64,000 nucleotides of DNA from an uncultured Gammaproteobacteria bacterium. GTDB taxonomy: Bacteria; Pseudomonadota; Gammaproteobacteria; DRJJ01. The first letter of the stretch is position 1. Every line of letters begins with the position of its first letter. The position numbers and the translations under genes are program-made. Where the stretch lies: the NCBI GenBank assembly GCA_947258795.1, contig CAMYJU010000007.1, forward strand, positions 200,712-264,711, in the 5' to 3' direction. Positions 18,509 to 24,727 of this stretch are shown here, one piece after another. The notes below the pieces were generated by a model, which was not told where the DNA came from, searched no databases, and saw nothing but the letters and a program-made list of their open reading frames with translations.

Positions 18509-18769
18509 CTATGGAATTTCACTCCATTCTTCAGGTTGCCAATCATGAATTTCGTCAGTCTGGCTGACGTTTTTCCTGACTGGCTGGGAAATCACTTCAT
18601 GTTCGACTGTATCGGCCTCGAACTCATAAGCGGCAAATTCGGCTACCTCATCTGATTGCAAAAACTGGGTGGCATCGGGTGTCTGGCCTTGTTGTACTTC
18701 AGCCATGGCAGTACCTGTCAGAATGAAAAATGAAATAGCGGTTGTCACAGCAGTTAGTTTTACGTTCAT
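18509..18769 (-). CDS. small secreted protein of unknown function
   Basis: 86 residues from the ATG at 18769, preceded by AAGGATAA; a longer frame from 18823 lacks sense before the signal peptide. The N-terminus MNVKLTAVTTAISFFILTG ends in an AMA-type signal peptidase I site, so the mature protein is about 62 residues. The mature part is acidic (many Glu and Asp), rich in Gln, Val and Trp, and has no cysteine. I recognise no family. It lies 173 bases downstream of the Ser/Thr kinase gene on the same strand, so it could belong to that transcription unit or have its own promoter. Confidence 0.65.
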   Translation of the reverse strand: MNVKLTAVTTAISFFILTGTAMAEVQQGQTPDATQFLQSDEVAEFAAYEFEADTVEHEVISQPVRKNVSQTDEIHDWQPEEWSEIP

Positions 18770-18942
18770 GGCAATTATCCTTAAATAAAGTATTGTCAGT
18801 GTATCCCTGGTCAACATCTCCATTGACGTATATCTTTGACCATATCTAAGGAAAAGAATTCGGCATATTCACATCGGGGCTGTGAATAAGTGACGAATCA
18901 AAAACTATATATTAAATAAGGGGAAGTGTGGTCAGGGAGCCG

Positions 18943-20379
18943 TCAGACCCGCGTACGCAGGCTGTTGCTACCCAGAAACTCTGATCTTTCGTGTTCTGTA
19001 GGGATAAACTGGGCAAGCCTTTGAAACAGTTCCTCTTCGCAGGTAACCGTTGTGGAGACCTTTTTCAGGATGGTGGTTGCCAGGGGGCCGATATAGAAAG
19101 CGAGACGACCTTCAATCATCTTCAGGTGTTCGTTGGAAATAGAGTAGCTGTCGTCCGGAACATGCGGGGTGCCTGCCATGTATGCCTGATTTTGATTGGG
19201 TATTGCGGGTATTGATGGTGCTATCGTGCCGATTACGGATGATACAAAACGGTCGCGGTCTTTCTGGTCAGGTATCTGTTTTGCCAGCGCTTCCACCAGA
19301 GCGCTTTTGCTGTTAAAGCTGTCCAGGTGCTTCTTGACCAGCAGGCGTGCCAGTGGACCGATGTAGAAGGCCAGACTGTTTTTCAGATTGTTCAGAAACT
19401 CATCATCCAGCTGGTTGTTGATCGTGCCGCCAGGTGCTGCAGCGGTGGCAAATTGGGTGGCCGTATAGGATATACCGGACAAAGAGTTTTCCTGTGATTC
19501 GGCCTTGTCCAGTACCGCCGTGAATTCCTCGGTAATCGAAATATTGTCTGTTATGTGGTCGTGCCTGAATTCATCGAGTCTGAGCAGCTTGCGTATCTCA
19601 AGGGCGAATGAAGCCGCTGTCTGAAAACGGTTACCGGGTTCGATGGACAGGGCCTTGCTGATAATCTTTCTGCAAGATCCGGGAATAGAACTGATGTCCT
19701 TGTTTTTCAGGTCAACGGGCCTGTTCTTGTCTTGCAGCCTGAGGGTGCCTGACAGAACAAGCAGTTCATACAGGATAATGCCGGTACTGTACAGATCGGC
19801 ACGATGGTCGACTTTGTGGCCCTGAAGCATTTCGGGAGCCATGTAGCGCAGGGTGCCGACCAGTTGCCCAGACAGGGTGATATCTGACTGATCAAGACGG
19901 GCAACACCGAAATCGGATATTTTGATATTCTTGCCGTTTTGAATAAATATATTACCCGGTTTCAGGTCTCGATGAACAATGCCGCGCATATGGGCATACT
20001 GTAGTCCGTCCAGTAATTGCTGGGTAATGACCAGGGCCTCAGTTTTGCTGATTTCGTTGCTTTGTAAATATTTTTTCAGGTCAGAGCCATTGTAGTATTC
20101 CATCACGATATAGGGCGTGTTCACATCTTCCCCATAGTCGAATACCGTCAGTATGCTCTGGTGGAGGCATCTGGCCGCAGCCTGGGCCTCCTTCCTGAAT
20201 CGGTACAGGTATTCTTCCTTTTTGTTACCTGCCAGCAGGTTATAGTGTATGGTCTTGATCGCTACATCGCGGTCAATACTTTCATCATAGCCTTTGTAGA
20301 CTATGCCCATCGAGCCTTCACCCAGGATACGGTCTATCCTGTATTTGCCTATACTGAGCGGTGTGGGTTGTGGGCTCAT
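18943..20379 (-). CDS. eukaryotic-type Ser/Thr protein kinase with two C-terminal YIGPLA repeats
   Basis: 478 residues. The kinase domain (about 13-270) is complete: glycine loop GEGSMGIVYKG, Lys42, HRDLKPGN (137-144), DFG (156-158), APE (181-183), with a typical activation loop. After a low-complexity linker come two copies of a 55-60-residue repeat, at about 325-384 and 416-470. Each starts with LAFYIGPLA and ends with an I-P-x(5)-R-x-x-F pattern. No transmembrane segment is visible, so the kinase is cytosolic. It begins 2 bases after the stop of the haem/HAMP gene, so both are co-translated and the membrane protein is the probable input. Target proteins are not visible. A matching phosphatase gene is absent from the window. 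Confidence 0.93.
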   Translation of the reverse strand: MSPQPTPLSIGKYRIDRILGEGSMGIVYKGYDESIDRDVAIKTIHYNLLAGNKKEEYLYRFRKEAQAAARCLHQSILTVFDYGEDVNTPYIVMEYYNGSDLKKYLQSNEISKTEALVITQQLLDGLQYAHMRGIVHRDLKPGNIFIQNGKNIKISDFGVARLDQSDITLSGQLVGTLRYMAPEMLQGHKVDHRADLYSTGIILYELLVLSGTLRLQDKNRPVDLKNKDISSIPGSCRKIISKALSIEPGNRFQTAASFALEIRKLLRLDEFRHDHITDNISITEEFTAVLDKAESQENSLSGISYTATQFATAAAPGGTINNQLDDEFLNNLKNSLAFYIGPLARLLVKKHLDSFNSKSALVEALAKQIPDQKDRDRFVSSVIGTIAPSIPAIPNQNQAYMAGTPHVPDDSYSISNEHLKMIEGRLAFYIGPLATTILKKVSTTVTCEEELFQRLAQFIPTEHERSEFLGSNSLRTRV

Positions 20380-20381
20380 AT

Positions 20382-21278
20382 TTACTGGGGCGGCTTGTTG
20401 TAGATCGTATCGTCAAGCATGTTGATAGCGCTGCCCAGGCTGCGACGCATGCGATTAAAGGACTGGGCCAGGGATGAGATCTCATCATTGCCCTTGGGTT
20501 CAAATTCCGGCGTCTCGGTACCGCCCATACTGACCTCGTTTGCCAGTTTGGACATGACGCGTATGCGTCGAATGATCATGCCGTGTAATGACAGGTTCAG
20601 TAAAATAGCGATAATGACAAAGACACCCAGCAAGGATCCCATAAAGGTATAAAAGGCCCGCTCGGCTCTCTCATACGGAATTGTTGCCGGTACCGACACA
20701 ACCTGTGCACCAACCACCTGGTCCATCTTCCAGCCAAAACCGTTAGCGGTGCCATACAGTACCTTCATGGTATCAGGGGCGTCGCTGATTATGCCATGAC
20801 AGCTCAGGCATCCTTCATTCTTTATCCTGATCGGGCGGCTCAGGAACAGGCTGGGGCCGGTAGGCGTGTCACGTTCACCGATAAATTCTTTTTCATCAGG
20901 ATGTGATCTGAACCATTCAACAATATCCATTTCCCAGGCCGCGGCGCGGTTCATCGGATTGGTTGGATTGATAGTTGCTTCCTTGTAGCTGTAGTCAGGA
21001 TATTGTATTTGCAGTCGTTTGATATTCTGAGTGGCGGCATAGGCAGGAACGGTTTGTGGCAGGAACTGCTTCTTTTGCTGTCTTGCCAGCAATGGTTTGA
21101 TTTCGTTTACGGTATAGCCGCGTATGGCCATGGCGCTGGCCATCATGATGCCGGCATTATGCAGCACCTCTTCCTGCGCATTTTTCTGTAATATAGTAAA
21201 TGCAAAAAAGCCGGCACTCACAAAGCCGATTGCGAAAGCGAGTATCAGTATTAGATTAAATTTGAAACGTAAGCCCAT
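20382..21278 (-). CDS. membrane sensor with periplasmic CxxCH haem domain (Tll0287-like/DUF3365) and HAMP
   Basis: 298 residues. An N-terminal signal-anchor helix (about 8-30) is followed by a periplasmic domain with one haem-c motif, CLSCH (157-161), and a distal GAQVVSVPATIPYE segment typical of DUF3365/Tll0287-like sensors. A second helix (about 212-235) and a HAMP linker (about 232-285, ending DEISSLAQSFNRMRRSL) follow. The protein then stops, so it has no kinase, cyclase or chemoreceptor output of its own. It lies 2 bases from the periplasmic protein gene upstream and 2 bases from the Ser/Thr kinase gene downstream, which strongly suggests a sensor-kinase system responding to redox state or a diatomic gas. 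The haem is inferred from the motif only. Confidence 0.88.
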   Translation of the reverse strand: MGLRFKFNLILILAFAIGFVSAGFFAFTILQKNAQEEVLHNAGIMMASAMAIRGYTVNEIKPLLARQQKKQFLPQTVPAYAATQNIKRLQIQYPDYSYKEATINPTNPMNRAAAWEMDIVEWFRSHPDEKEFIGERDTPTGPSLFLSRPIRIKNEGCLSCHGIISDAPDTMKVLYGTANGFGWKMDQVVGAQVVSVPATIPYERAERAFYTFMGSLLGVFVIIAILLNLSLHGMIIRRIRVMSKLANEVSMGGTETPEFEPKGNDEISSLAQSFNRMRRSLGSAINMLDDTIYNKPPQ

Positions 21279-21280
21279 GG

Positions 21281-21841
21281 CTATTCTCCAACGTATAGTG
21301 CAATTTCAGATTTGGCCTGACACTGAATGTACTCGGTATAGGTTTTGGTAAAACCAACCAGGTCAAAGCGAGCCTCCTGTAAACCGCTTTTCTCCCAACT
21401 TGGCCAGAAGCCCATGTGAACAGACGCCCAGTAACCCTTGATAAACTGGGCCAGATATTCAGGATCAAATGTTGCGATCAGAGCGGTCTTTTTATCGGTA
21501 AATTGCTCAATCACTATCGGTTCGTATTTGTCTACGTTGATACGGGTGTTACTATACGATGTATCGATGATTGAATTTGTGACGATATACAGATTGGCGC
21601 CGGTTAATAACAGATAAAGCCTGGTTTCATCATCCTGGATACGCACCGCGGCATCAGCAGATCGCATATAGCAGCCCTGCTTGTGAGTTACCGGATTGTA
21701 TCCCTTTACGACCTGCCAGTTCCGGGCAGCCATGCGACTCTCCAGATCAGTCGACGCATGGGCTGGATAAATAATAACCAGACAGTAGATAAGGCAGAAG
21801 CTGAAAAAGCGGGTAAAAAAGCTTGGAATAGAAATCTTCAT
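21281..21841 (-). CDS. periplasmic protein of unknown function, first gene of the haem-sensor/kinase operon
   Basis: 186 residues from the ATG at 21841; a frame from 21889 adds 16 residues before the signal peptide and is less likely. The N-terminus MKISIPSFFTRFFSFCLIY continues hydrophobic and ends PAHAS, a signal peptidase site. The mature protein has two cysteines (in KQGCYMRSADA and YIQCQAK) that could form a disulfide. I do not recognise the family; the sequence is weakly reminiscent of IalB-type periplasmic proteins, which I cannot confirm. Its stop is 2 bases before the haem/HAMP gene, so it may be a ligand-binding or accessory subunit of that sensor. Confidence 0.75.
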   Translation of the reverse strand: MKISIPSFFTRFFSFCLIYCLVIIYPAHASTDLESRMAARNWQVVKGYNPVTHKQGCYMRSADAAVRIQDDETRLYLLLTGANLYIVTNSIIDTSYSNTRINVDKYEPIVIEQFTDKKTALIATFDPEYLAQFIKGYWASVHMGFWPSWEKSGLQEARFDLVGFTKTYTEYIQCQAKSEIALYVGE

Positions 21842-22168
21842 TTGTTTGCTCGTCCATTGAACACTGCTACCGAGAGCATTTAAATCCATCCTGACATCCG
21901 TCAGTTTCCTGTGTCGATTATGGTCTTGTATGCCGACAGGAACAGGCTACGCCACTTTGAAAAAAAAACAAGTGGTGACGGCATTATAGTATTAATAGAC
22001 TATTCTTGTATATGGAAATGCTAATACAACACAATATGTAGGGCATTATCTCATAGTCAGATGATGCTGAACAGAACAAATATGACGGCTGGACTAATAA
22101 CCTTATTAACCATATGTTAGCGTTAAGCTTGTACTGTGGCGTCAGACTATGGATCGACAGGTGAGTGG
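21842..22168. other. divergent intergenic region
   Basis: 327 bases between two divergent genes, the periplasmic protein (minus) and the RND transporter (plus). It holds an inverted repeat CCACTT / AAGTGG around an A-tract at 21952-21975. Both promoters should be here but no clear consensus pair is visible. An in-frame GTG at 22136 could start the RND gene earlier. Confidence 0.5.
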
Positions 22169-24727
22169 ATGCGATTTTCGCCAAGGCAGACATACGAGGT
22201 ATTGGTGCTGGACCGGCCGGCAATCACCCTGTTGCTCGCTTTTATCTTGCTGGTTGTATTTGGATTGTATGTACACCAGTTCAGGCTGGATGCCTCCGCG
22301 GATTCCCTGGTGCTGGAGAACGATGAAAACCTGCGTTACTACCGCTCTGTGAAAGCGCGATATGGTACTGCGGATTATATTGTCATTACCTATAAGCCAT
22401 ACAGAAGCCTGTTGGCCGATGAATCCCTGGCCGACCTGGTCAGCTTGCGTGACAGTCTGCTGGCAATGGAAAGCGTGGAGTCGGTTAACAGTATCCTTGA
22501 TGTACCACTTATTAGCAGTCCTGCTGTCAGTATTTCGGAATTGCAAAAAAAAGTACCTACCCTGCTGGATACAGATACCGACCGGGCCCTGGCACGCAAG
22601 GAGTTTCTGCAAAGCCCACTGTACAAGGACATGATCCTGAGCAAGGACGGGAAAACGACTGCCTTGCAGATCAATTTTCACAGGGACGGGAAATACAGTA
22701 AGTTACTGAGCAGGCGCGAAGCCTTGAGGGAGAAAGGCCAGCATCGGCAACTGACAGATGAAGAGGCTGTCGAGCTTGAAACGATCAGTGATGAATTTCA
22801 GCAATACAGTATACTAGTCGCAGCCAGGGAAAGCCGGGATATCGGCATGATCCGCGCTATTATGAATGAGCATCGCTCATCTGCTGTCATGCACCTGGGT
22901 GGTATTCCGATGATCACCTCGGATATGATTGATTTTATCAGGCATGATCTGCTGGTGTTTGGGGTGGGCGTTATCGTTTTTCTGATTGCTATGATGGCGA
23001 TTATTTTCAGAAAGCCCCGTTATATTCTGTTACCCTTGTTTTGCTGCCTGATAACAGTCATCTTTATGGTTGGTTATCTCGGCATGGTTGACTGGCGTGT
23101 CACCGTGGTCTCATCGAATTTCATTTCCCTTTTGCTGATTATTACCCTGTCACTGAATATACACCTGGTGGTGCGTTATCTTGAGTTGCTGCGCATGCAT
23201 CCGGAAGCAGACCAGAAAACGCTGTTACAGGAAACCATCAGGACAAAGGTGATCCCGAGCTTCTATACAGCATTGACTACCGTTGTGGCTTTCAGCTCAT
23301 TGATTGTGAGTGATATCCGACCGGTTATTGATTTTGGCTGGATGATGGCGATCGGGATTAGCGCAGGATTCGTATTTACCTTTACAGTGCTGCCGGCCAT
23401 TTTTGTACTGCTGAAGCCTAAGCGGGTGCATTTGAGACTGGATATTACCGGCAGGTTCACCGGTTTTATTGCTAACCTGGTCATACAGAACACAAGGCCG
23501 ATTATGTATTTCTTTATTGCCTTTTCGGTACTCAGTGTGGCCGGTATGTTCAGGCTGACGGTTGAAAACAGGTTCATTGATCATTTCAAGGATTCGACTG
23601 ATATCTACCAGGGGATGAAGGTTATCGATGAAGAGCTGGGTGGAACGACCCCGATGGATATCATCGTTGACGCAGATGCTGAATTTTATAAATCGCTGAA
23701 AGAAGAGCAGGCCTTTCTGGAAGAACTGGATATGGAGGATGAAGAACCGGGTGAAGCCGGGCTGAGTGGAACCAGTTACTGGTTTAATATGTACCGCCTC
23801 GACAAGATAAATGAGATTCATGCGTATCTGGAGCAGTTGCCGGAGTCAGGCAAGGTGCTTTCCCTGAATACAGCCATGTCCATGCTCAAAACGATCAATG
23901 GCGGCAAGCCGCTGGATAACTACAGCATGTCGATTCTTTACAAGAAGCTGCCGACAGACATCAAGGAAACCCTGTTTGACCCGTATATGTCTGATGATGC
24001 CAACCAGCTACGTTTTTCAGTTCGTGTATATGAGTCAGACCCGGCTCTGAGACGCAACGAGTTGATCAAAAAAGTCAGGCATGACCTGGTCAACAAGCTG
24101 GGTCTGGCCGAGGAACAGGTTCACATGACCGGCATGGTGGTGCTTTACAATAACATGCTGCAAAGCCTGTTCAGGTCCCAGATATTAACTATCGGGGCCG
24201 TATTCCTGGCCATTATGCTGCTGTTCATCATACTGTTCAGGTCCTTGCTGATGGCAACGATCGCAATCATACCCAACCTGTTCGCCGCCGGCATGGTGCT
24301 CGGACTGATGGGCTGGCTGAATATACCGCTTGATATCATGACCATTACCATTGCGGCCATTACAATCGGTATCGCAGTTGACAATACCATACACTATATA
24401 CATCGCTACTCCGATGAGATCATCCGGGATCATGATTACGCTGCGGCAGTCAGGCGTTGTCATGGCAGTATCGGCCGGGCGATGTACTATACATCCATCA
24501 CCGTCATAACAGGATTTTCTATCCTGGTCTTTTCGCGTTTTATGCCAACGATCTATTTCGGCGTGCTGACCGGTTTTGCGATGTTTGTCGCCATTATCGC
24601 AGACCTGATCCTGTTGCCGCTAATTCTGATGATGGTCAAACCGGGCGTGAAGCATATGCCCGAAGCCAGGCCGACACGGCTGGTTCCTCATCGGTATGGG
24701 CAGACTGCAAACCTGCTTCAAGATTAG
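22169..24727 (+). CDS. RND superfamily (MMPL-type) transporter
   Basis: 852 residues from the ATG at 22169, which has AGGTGAG just upstream; a GTG at 22136 would add 11 residues before the first helix. The protein has two related halves. Each half has one N-terminal helix, a large periplasmic loop, then a cluster of five helices, giving about 12 membrane spans. The second half shows the conserved GIAVDNTIHYIHRYSDE motif of sterol-sensing/MMPL-type RND proteins. Such proteins without a membrane-fusion partner often move lipids, hopanoids or siderophores. No membrane-fusion or outer-membrane channel gene is adjacent. The substrate cannot be inferred. Confidence 0.92.
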   Translation: MRFSPRQTYEVLVLDRPAITLLLAFILLVVFGLYVHQFRLDASADSLVLENDENLRYYRSVKARYGTADYIVITYKPYRSLLADESLADLVSLRDSLLAMESVESVNSILDVPLISSPAVSISELQKKVPTLLDTDTDRALARKEFLQSPLYKDMILSKDGKTTALQINFHRDGKYSKLLSRREALREKGQHRQLTDEEAVELETISDEFQQYSILVAARESRDIGMIRAIMNEHRSSAVMHLGGIPMITSDMIDFIRHDLLVFGVGVIVFLIAMMAIIFRKPRYILLPLFCCLITVIFMVGYLGMVDWRVTVVSSNFISLLLIITLSLNIHLVVRYLELLRMHPEADQKTLLQETIRTKVIPSFYTALTTVVAFSSLIVSDIRPVIDFGWMMAIGISAGFVFTFTVLPAIFVLLKPKRVHLRLDITGRFTGFIANLVIQNTRPIMYFFIAFSVLSVAGMFRLTVENRFIDHFKDSTDIYQGMKVIDEELGGTTPMDIIVDADAEFYKSLKEEQAFLEELDMEDEEPGEAGLSGTSYWFNMYRLDKINEIHAYLEQLPESGKVLSLNTAMSMLKTINGGKPLDNYSMSILYKKLPTDIKETLFDPYMSDDANQLRFSVRVYESDPALRRNELIKKVRHDLVNKLGLAEEQVHMTGMVVLYNNMLQSLFRSQILTIGAVFLAIMLLFIILFRSLLMATIAIIPNLFAAGMVLGLMGWLNIPLDIMTITIAAITIGIAVDNTIHYIHRYSDEIIRDHDYAAAVRRCHGSIGRAMYYTSITVITGFSILVFSRFMPTIYFGVLTGFAMFVAIIADLILLPLILMMVKPGVKHMPEARPTRLVPHRYGQTANLLQD

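Follow-up and report, generated by a model that had tools for sequence, protein, structure and literature searches.

Three adjacent minus-strand genes in the window analysed here (the whole stretch of 64,000 nucleotides from contig CAMYJU010000007.1 of an uncultured Gammaproteobacteria bacterium, assembly GCA_947258795.1) encode a secreted protein, a membrane receptor that ends in a HAMP domain, and a soluble Ser/Thr kinase with two C-terminal repeats, referred to here as IGP or STAC-like repeats. Comparison with related loci strongly indicates that the constant partner of such HAMP-terminated receptors is the STAC-like repeat and not the kinase domain. The operon probably represents a split transmembrane receptor, in which a signal perceived by a periplasmic haem domain would be passed via HAMP to the STAC-like repeats of the separate kinase. 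We assign this explanation as a whole a probability of about 70%.

Domain structure of the receptor and the kinase

The open reading frames confirmed the layout given in a preliminary description of this DNA, three genes separated by gaps of only 2 bp (20380-20381 between the kinase and receptor genes, 21279-21280 between those of the receptor and the secreted protein; Table 1). The same description had proposed a membrane protein with a single CxxCH motif, a HAMP linker and no output domain, and this was borne out by the domain analysis. Residues 31-197 of the receptor matched the Tll0287-like family PF11845 (formerly DUF3365) with 123 bits (cut-off 24.1, E 1.8e-35), and residues 232-281 of 298 matched HAMP (PF00672, E 1.3e-10). 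Two transmembrane segments were predicted, and no domain was found beyond HAMP, as only 17 residues remain after the Pfam match. The only two cysteines of the receptor, Cys157 and Cys160, both lie within the motif CLSCH, and Cys157, Cys160 and His161 were invariant in an alignment of 13 receptor homologues. Judged from this motif within a Tll0287-like domain, the receptor would carry a covalently bound c-haem. With an attached HAMP domain and no axial Cys, its sequence is that expected of the nitric oxide (NO)-type sCache_heme proteins (Cluster 2, PMC12889525). Among the 25 HAMP matches of the window genome, that of the receptor is the sole one ending its protein; in the other 24, at least 195 amino acids follow the HAMP midpoint.

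The protein previously described as a soluble eukaryotic-type kinase indeed matched PF00069 (175.9 bits, cut-off 31.7, E 1.3e-51, residues 13-253), retains an intact catalytic set (G-loop, VAIK, HRDLKPGN, DFG and APE; K42, D138, N143, DFG156) and has no predicted transmembrane segment. With 253.7 against the required 450 bits, it also remained below the equivalog cut-off of the PASTA-type Stk1/PknB kinases (NF033483). Matches to the PADLOC models PD-T4-6/mad6 were rejected as generic kinase-domain matches. The C-terminal part contains two YIGPLA repeats, at about residues 328-382 and 418-471, and no consistent Pfam or NCBIfam match to this repeat was obtained among 27 members. Of the eight kinase matches in the window genome, only this one bears the repeat, which occurs nowhere else in the genome, and the genome's sole HAMP-terminated receptor hence adjoins its sole IGP protein.

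Conserved adjacency of receptor and repeat genes

A first receptor search yielded 12 related loci, whose neighbouring genes were then examined by tblastn. Most of the HAMP-bearing relatives, which range from Methylococcaceae, Competibacteraceae and Crenothrix to an Acidobacteria and a Rhodospirillales metagenome-assembled genome, had beside them a kinase that ends in these repeats. In addition, annotated plasmids of Rhodovulum, Caballeronia, Skermanella and Paraburkholderia carry a 'DUF3365 domain-containing protein' directly followed by a 'serine/threonine-protein kinase', and also these kinases bear the repeats. The recurrence of the arrangement in Gammaproteobacteria, Alphaproteobacteria, Betaproteobacteria and Acidobacteriota argues against chance.

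As some receptor neighbours lacked a kinase domain but ended in the repeat, the repeat alone was used as a search anchor. Successive searches identified 45 IGP genes (34 + 3 + 8), 40 of which adjoin a HAMP-terminated receptor, as counted by hand from the locus tables and including loci with a receptor that is frameshifted or truncated at the contig end. Three of the five exceptions are located at contig ends (G291:C196, G087 and G289) and one on a short contig (G791); in G284, the receptor is 260 kb away. Among 369 Gammaproteobacteria genomes, the repeat was found in 29 and the receptor family in 28, with 25 genomes having both, 3 the receptor only, 4 the repeat only and 337 neither (Fisher p 1.8e-31). 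Restriction to genomes outside model building gave 12, 3, 4 and 337, respectively (p 1.1e-16). In three of the repeat-only genomes (G015, G043, G312), the repeat gene lies beside a different Cache sensor protein that also ends in HAMP, and in the fourth, G289, it lies at the contig end. The receptor and repeat genes are convergent in L153, L155 and L157, indicating that the link outlives co-transcription. The preliminary description had inferred a functional link between receptor and kinase from gene order, which a lack of conserved adjacency in related genomes would have refuted. The adjacency and co-occurrence observed here strongly support such a link, and functional coupling of the two proteins thus appears highly probable.

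Exchange of effector heads and sensors

The repeat was found attached to several effector heads, i.e., kinase, Guanylate_cyc (class III cyclase), TIR, DUF4388, Roadblock-like and ACT-like domains. Cyclase-repeat genes are located beside a receptor in L057, L059, L060, L061 and L076, and in L060 and L061 a kinase-repeat gene and a cyclase-repeat gene flank one and the same receptor. TIR-repeat genes accompany an sCache_heme-HAMP receptor at L019:5940-6494 / L124:2-556 and at L157:5121-5867, and a repeat protein with an ACT-like head adjoins the receptor in L075. The kinase domain was rejected as the conserved partner, since the neighbour lacks it in L019/L124, L057, L059, L076, L075 and L157. 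Also the sensors of the HAMP-terminated receptors vary, including sCache_heme, dCache_1, sCache_3_3 and others at eight such loci, and wider searches identified further pairs with other sensors (L119, L120, L121, L158 and L159) as well as DUF4388 heads. The earlier proposal of a split Ser/Thr kinase receptor is thus supported with regard to the pairing; with regard to the kinase, which is not the constant partner, it represents one case of a wider rule, as receptors of this type also have cyclases, TIR proteins and others as partners.

In genome G002, catalytic residues are missing from both kinases (HGD/YFD in L005:4-1482, HRN/GFG in L009:742-2178), which are likely pseudokinases as judged from these motifs. 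The repeats and the adjacent receptor are kept, suggesting that docking can persist without catalysis.

The TIR domains fused to the STAC-like repeat (L019/L124, L157) are possibly membrane-gated TIR enzymes. At L094:2367-4336, a GTPase gene is followed by genes for a Roadblock-like/STAC-like protein and a Cache-HAMP receptor, possibly forming a receptor-coupled small-GTPase module. At L118:4118-5548 (G369), a PP2C-type phosphatase fused to the STAC-like repeat follows the gene of a HEAT-like repeat kinase and is not linked to a receptor.

The HAMP tail and the likeness of the repeats to STAC

A tail of the form S-L-x-x-A-M-x-x-L after HAMP was present in 53 of 59 HAMP-terminated receptors and in 1 of the 24 fused HAMP domains of the window genome (p 6e-14), a value that overstates the evidence as the motif was defined after inspection of the tails, the sequences are related and the counts carry no phylogenetic correction. 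The nearest solved relative of the window HAMP is that of AF1503, which bears the same tail (RRSLKVAMESL). Based on this match, an IGP-like protein was predicted to be encoded beside AF1503, and the published protein Af1502 was then found to fit. Af1502 is translationally coupled to Af1503, an orphan HAMP receptor of Archaeoglobus fulgidus; its structure (5A1Q), the type structure of STAC, is a bundle of four helices in which an LGPx(x)A motif separates helices 1 and 2, and sequence searches are stated to leave the protein a singleton (PMC4834066).

An AlphaFold2 model of the kinase C-terminus similarly predicted two four-helix units with GP between helices 1 and 2 (helices at model positions 7-21, 24-33, 39-47 and 53-67, and at 97-111, 114-123, 129-137 and 143-154), with the GP invariant at positions 22-23 and 112-113. 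In a Foldseek search with this model, 5A1Q was the best PDB match (rank 1-2), although a weak one (E 0.99, prob 0.85). Alignment of repeat 2 to 5a1q_A by VIA-align gave a Z of 5.5 over 61 residues with a root-mean-square deviation of 2.9, close to the values of unrelated helical chains. Because of these weak structural scores, the repeats are termed STAC-like.

Proposed mechanism and alternative explanations

In the split receptor that we propose, the periplasmic c-haem Cache domain would bind NO or change its redox or ligation state, and this change would move the transmembrane helices and the HAMP bundle. The short tail after HAMP would then relay the signal to the separate kinase, received by the STAC-like repeats at its C-terminal end, and the activity or location of the kinase would change. 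The STAC-like domain would accordingly serve as a general receiver for HAMP-terminated receptors, which elsewhere bears the other effector heads described above. Coupling through a physical HAMP-STAC contact is probable; NO, or NO together with redox, as the signal is a tentative proposal with slightly less than even chances. That STAC-like domains are general cytosolic receivers in bacteria and archaea, so that any sensor with HAMP and the SLxxAM tail plugs into any STAC effector, appears somewhat more likely than the contrary.

Apart from the overstated tail statistics, several observations weigh against the proposed split receptor. The assignment of the repeats to STAC is based on the motif, the predicted helix layout and a weak fold match, and sequence-profile searches with two repeat alignments did not match 5A1Q. 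Receptor and repeat are both present and unlinked in G284 and in G369, the latter reached via its receptor locus and hence outside the 45-gene count. In G342 (L078) and the cyanobacterial locus L164, a receptor occurs with no IGP gene nearby. Finally, deletion of STAC from CbrA resulted in no visible phenotype in Pseudomonas fluorescens (PMC7918813).

In one alternative, receptor and kinase would act in a common pathway without HAMP-STAC contact; the STAC-like domain would bind another partner, e.g., a transporter, and the adjacency would reflect co-regulation only. A function in regulating solute transport has been proposed for STAC, which is found between SLC5 transporters and histidine kinases as well (PMC4834066, PMC5715377); in the CbrA structure, it packs on the SLC5 domain. 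However, it is exactly the HAMP end and the STAC-like domain that stay constant across unrelated sensors and effectors, and the loci have no constant transporter gene, an MMPL gene being shared with the sister genome only. We consider this alternative unlikely. The receptor might also function chiefly in periplasmic electron transfer or as a redox protein, its HAMP domain being vestigial and the kinase a separate regulator, as redox-like properties have been reported for stand-alone Tll0287-type proteins (PMC12889525). In that study, however, the redox-type member had no HAMP and the NO-type member had one. HAMP and the tail are moreover kept together with the second transmembrane segment in dozens of receptor relatives, and no IGP gene was found in the genomes of L021 and L022, whose relatives lack the HAMP end, which renders this possibility very improbable.

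A role as regulator of type VI secretion systems (T6SS), substituting for PpkA with the adjacency being part of T6SS islands, is suggested by T6SS genes (TagF, TssM, TssH, FHA) flanking or enclosing the pair on Caballeronia, Skermanella and Paraburkholderia plasmids (L161, L162, L163) and in L016 and L126. As 24 of the 41 genomes bearing the pair or the repeat had no TssC match, T6SS was rejected as the general context. In the window genome, the T6SS is located on contig C1 and the operon on C7. For the module as such, a T6SS role is quite improbable. Where the pair does sit in T6SS clusters, the T6SS is a plausible target, and there the pair is possibly an alternative to PpkA.

If the HAMP end and STAC indeed form a plug and socket, the sCache_heme-HAMP proteins would acquire an output, and a common membrane input would be available to Ser/Thr kinases, cyclases and TIR proteins. 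The general-receiver reading, if true, would provide STAC with a function and Af1503 with a partner logic. Small soluble domains and common laboratory strains would suffice for testing these ideas.

The secreted protein and the surroundings of the operon

The product of the third gene, which may start further upstream, at 21889, has a hydrophobic N-terminus, in agreement with its earlier description as secreted, and is probably periplasmic. Its AlphaFold2 model (predicted local distance difference test 84) retrieved IalB (3dtd) at Foldseek ranks 1-6 (top E 4.7e-4, prob 1.00), predicting an IalB fold. The window protein had no Pfam match, PF06776 included, and this family was weakly matched by two of six homologues. 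The gene is found in only part of the relatives and is accessory to the operon. In L122, L153, L155, L161 and L163, the gene upstream of the receptor encodes another secreted protein in its stead, one that has no Pfam match. Peptidoglycan-binding proteins occupy its place in L160 and L125; in the latter, a caspase-like (Peptidase_C14) and peptidoglycan-binding protein (L125:2493-3545) lies directly upstream of the receptor-kinase pair.

A divergent MMPL/RND-family transporter gene (window 22136-24727, plus strand) adjoins the operon and is kept in the sister genome (L011). At the 3' side of the kinase gene, a 104-amino-acid protein without family match is encoded (window 18509-18823, minus strand), a homologue of which is located near the sister-genome operon (L011:8246-8530).

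Table 1. Features of the operon, with positions in the window and the evidence for each.
Feature	Position	Strand	Evidence
Secreted (periplasmic) protein, predicted IalB-like fold, 186 aa	21281-21841	minus	ORF, hydrophobic N-terminus, AlphaFold2 model, Foldseek
HAMP-terminated receptor (sCache_heme/Tll0287-like + HAMP), 298 aa, two transmembrane segments	20382-21278	minus	PF11845, PF00672, transmembrane prediction, HAMP end kept in relatives
Tll0287-like/sCache_heme sensor domain, residues 31-197	20688-21188	minus	PF11845, E 1.8e-35
CLSCH c-type haem attachment motif, residues 157-161	20796-20810	minus	Homologue alignment, Cys list
HAMP domain, residues 232-281	20436-20585	minus	PF00672, E 1.3e-10
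Tail motif SLGSAINML at the C-terminus (residues 280-288), putative docking element	20415-20441	minus	Motif counts, AF1503 likeness
Hanks-type Ser/Thr kinase, soluble, 478 aa, bearing two STAC-like repeats at its C-terminus	18943-20379	minus	PF00069, E 1.3e-51; catalytic motifs; no transmembrane segment
Kinase catalytic domain, residues 13-253	19621-20343	minus	PF00069
STAC-like (IGP) repeat 1, residues 328-382	19234-19398	minus	Repeat searches; AlphaFold2 (four helices, GP between helices 1 and 2)
STAC-like (IGP) repeat 2, residues 418-471	18967-19128	minus	Repeat searches; AlphaFold2; VIA-align to 5a1q_A

Comparison with known systems

The operon had been regarded as a candidate undescribed signalling system. 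This holds only in part, as sCache_heme-HAMP proteins (PMC12889525) and the Af1503/Af1502 pair (Korycinski et al. 2015, as described in PMC4834066) have been published; what is new, as far as the literature covered extends, is the partnership of bacterial HAMP-terminated haem or Cache receptors with soluble effectors (Ser/Thr kinases, cyclases, TIR proteins and others) that bear STAC-like domains. No paper joining STAC, HAMP-only receptors and Ser/Thr kinases was found in the open-access literature, a scope outside which the original STAC description of 2015 falls.

Among the closest known systems, WP_033902098 of Pseudomonas azotoformans is an sCache_heme-HAMP protein that binds c-haem, and NO tightly (PMC12889525). 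It shares with the window receptor the Tll0287-like domain, CxxCH, two transmembrane helices, a cytoplasmic HAMP and the lack of an axial Cys. The main text of that study names no output partner and does not contain the words 'serine', 'threonine' or 'operon', whereas here a kinase gene directly follows.

In the CbrA/CrbS SLC5-STAC histidine kinases (PMC5715377, PMC13022988), STAC also couples a membrane input with signalling in the cytosol; however, they are single chains with a transporter input and a histidine kinase or GGDEF output, and have no HAMP-terminated partner. PpkA of the T6SS (PMC12607579) is likewise a Hanks-type kinase, and some receptor-kinase pairs are located in T6SS clusters beside FHA, TagF and TssM genes, but PpkA has its own transmembrane segment and periplasmic domain in one chain, whereas sensor and kinase are separate proteins here. 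An organization similar to that of the operon is found in Af1503/Af1502, in which HAMP is also the only cytosolic part of the receptor, the tail reads SLKVAM, and the coupled protein is a four-helix LGPx(x)A protein. In contrast to the window operon, with its predicted c-haem Cache sensor and two repeat copies on a Ser/Thr kinase, the archaeal STAC stands alone, with 60-90 amino acids and no effector head.

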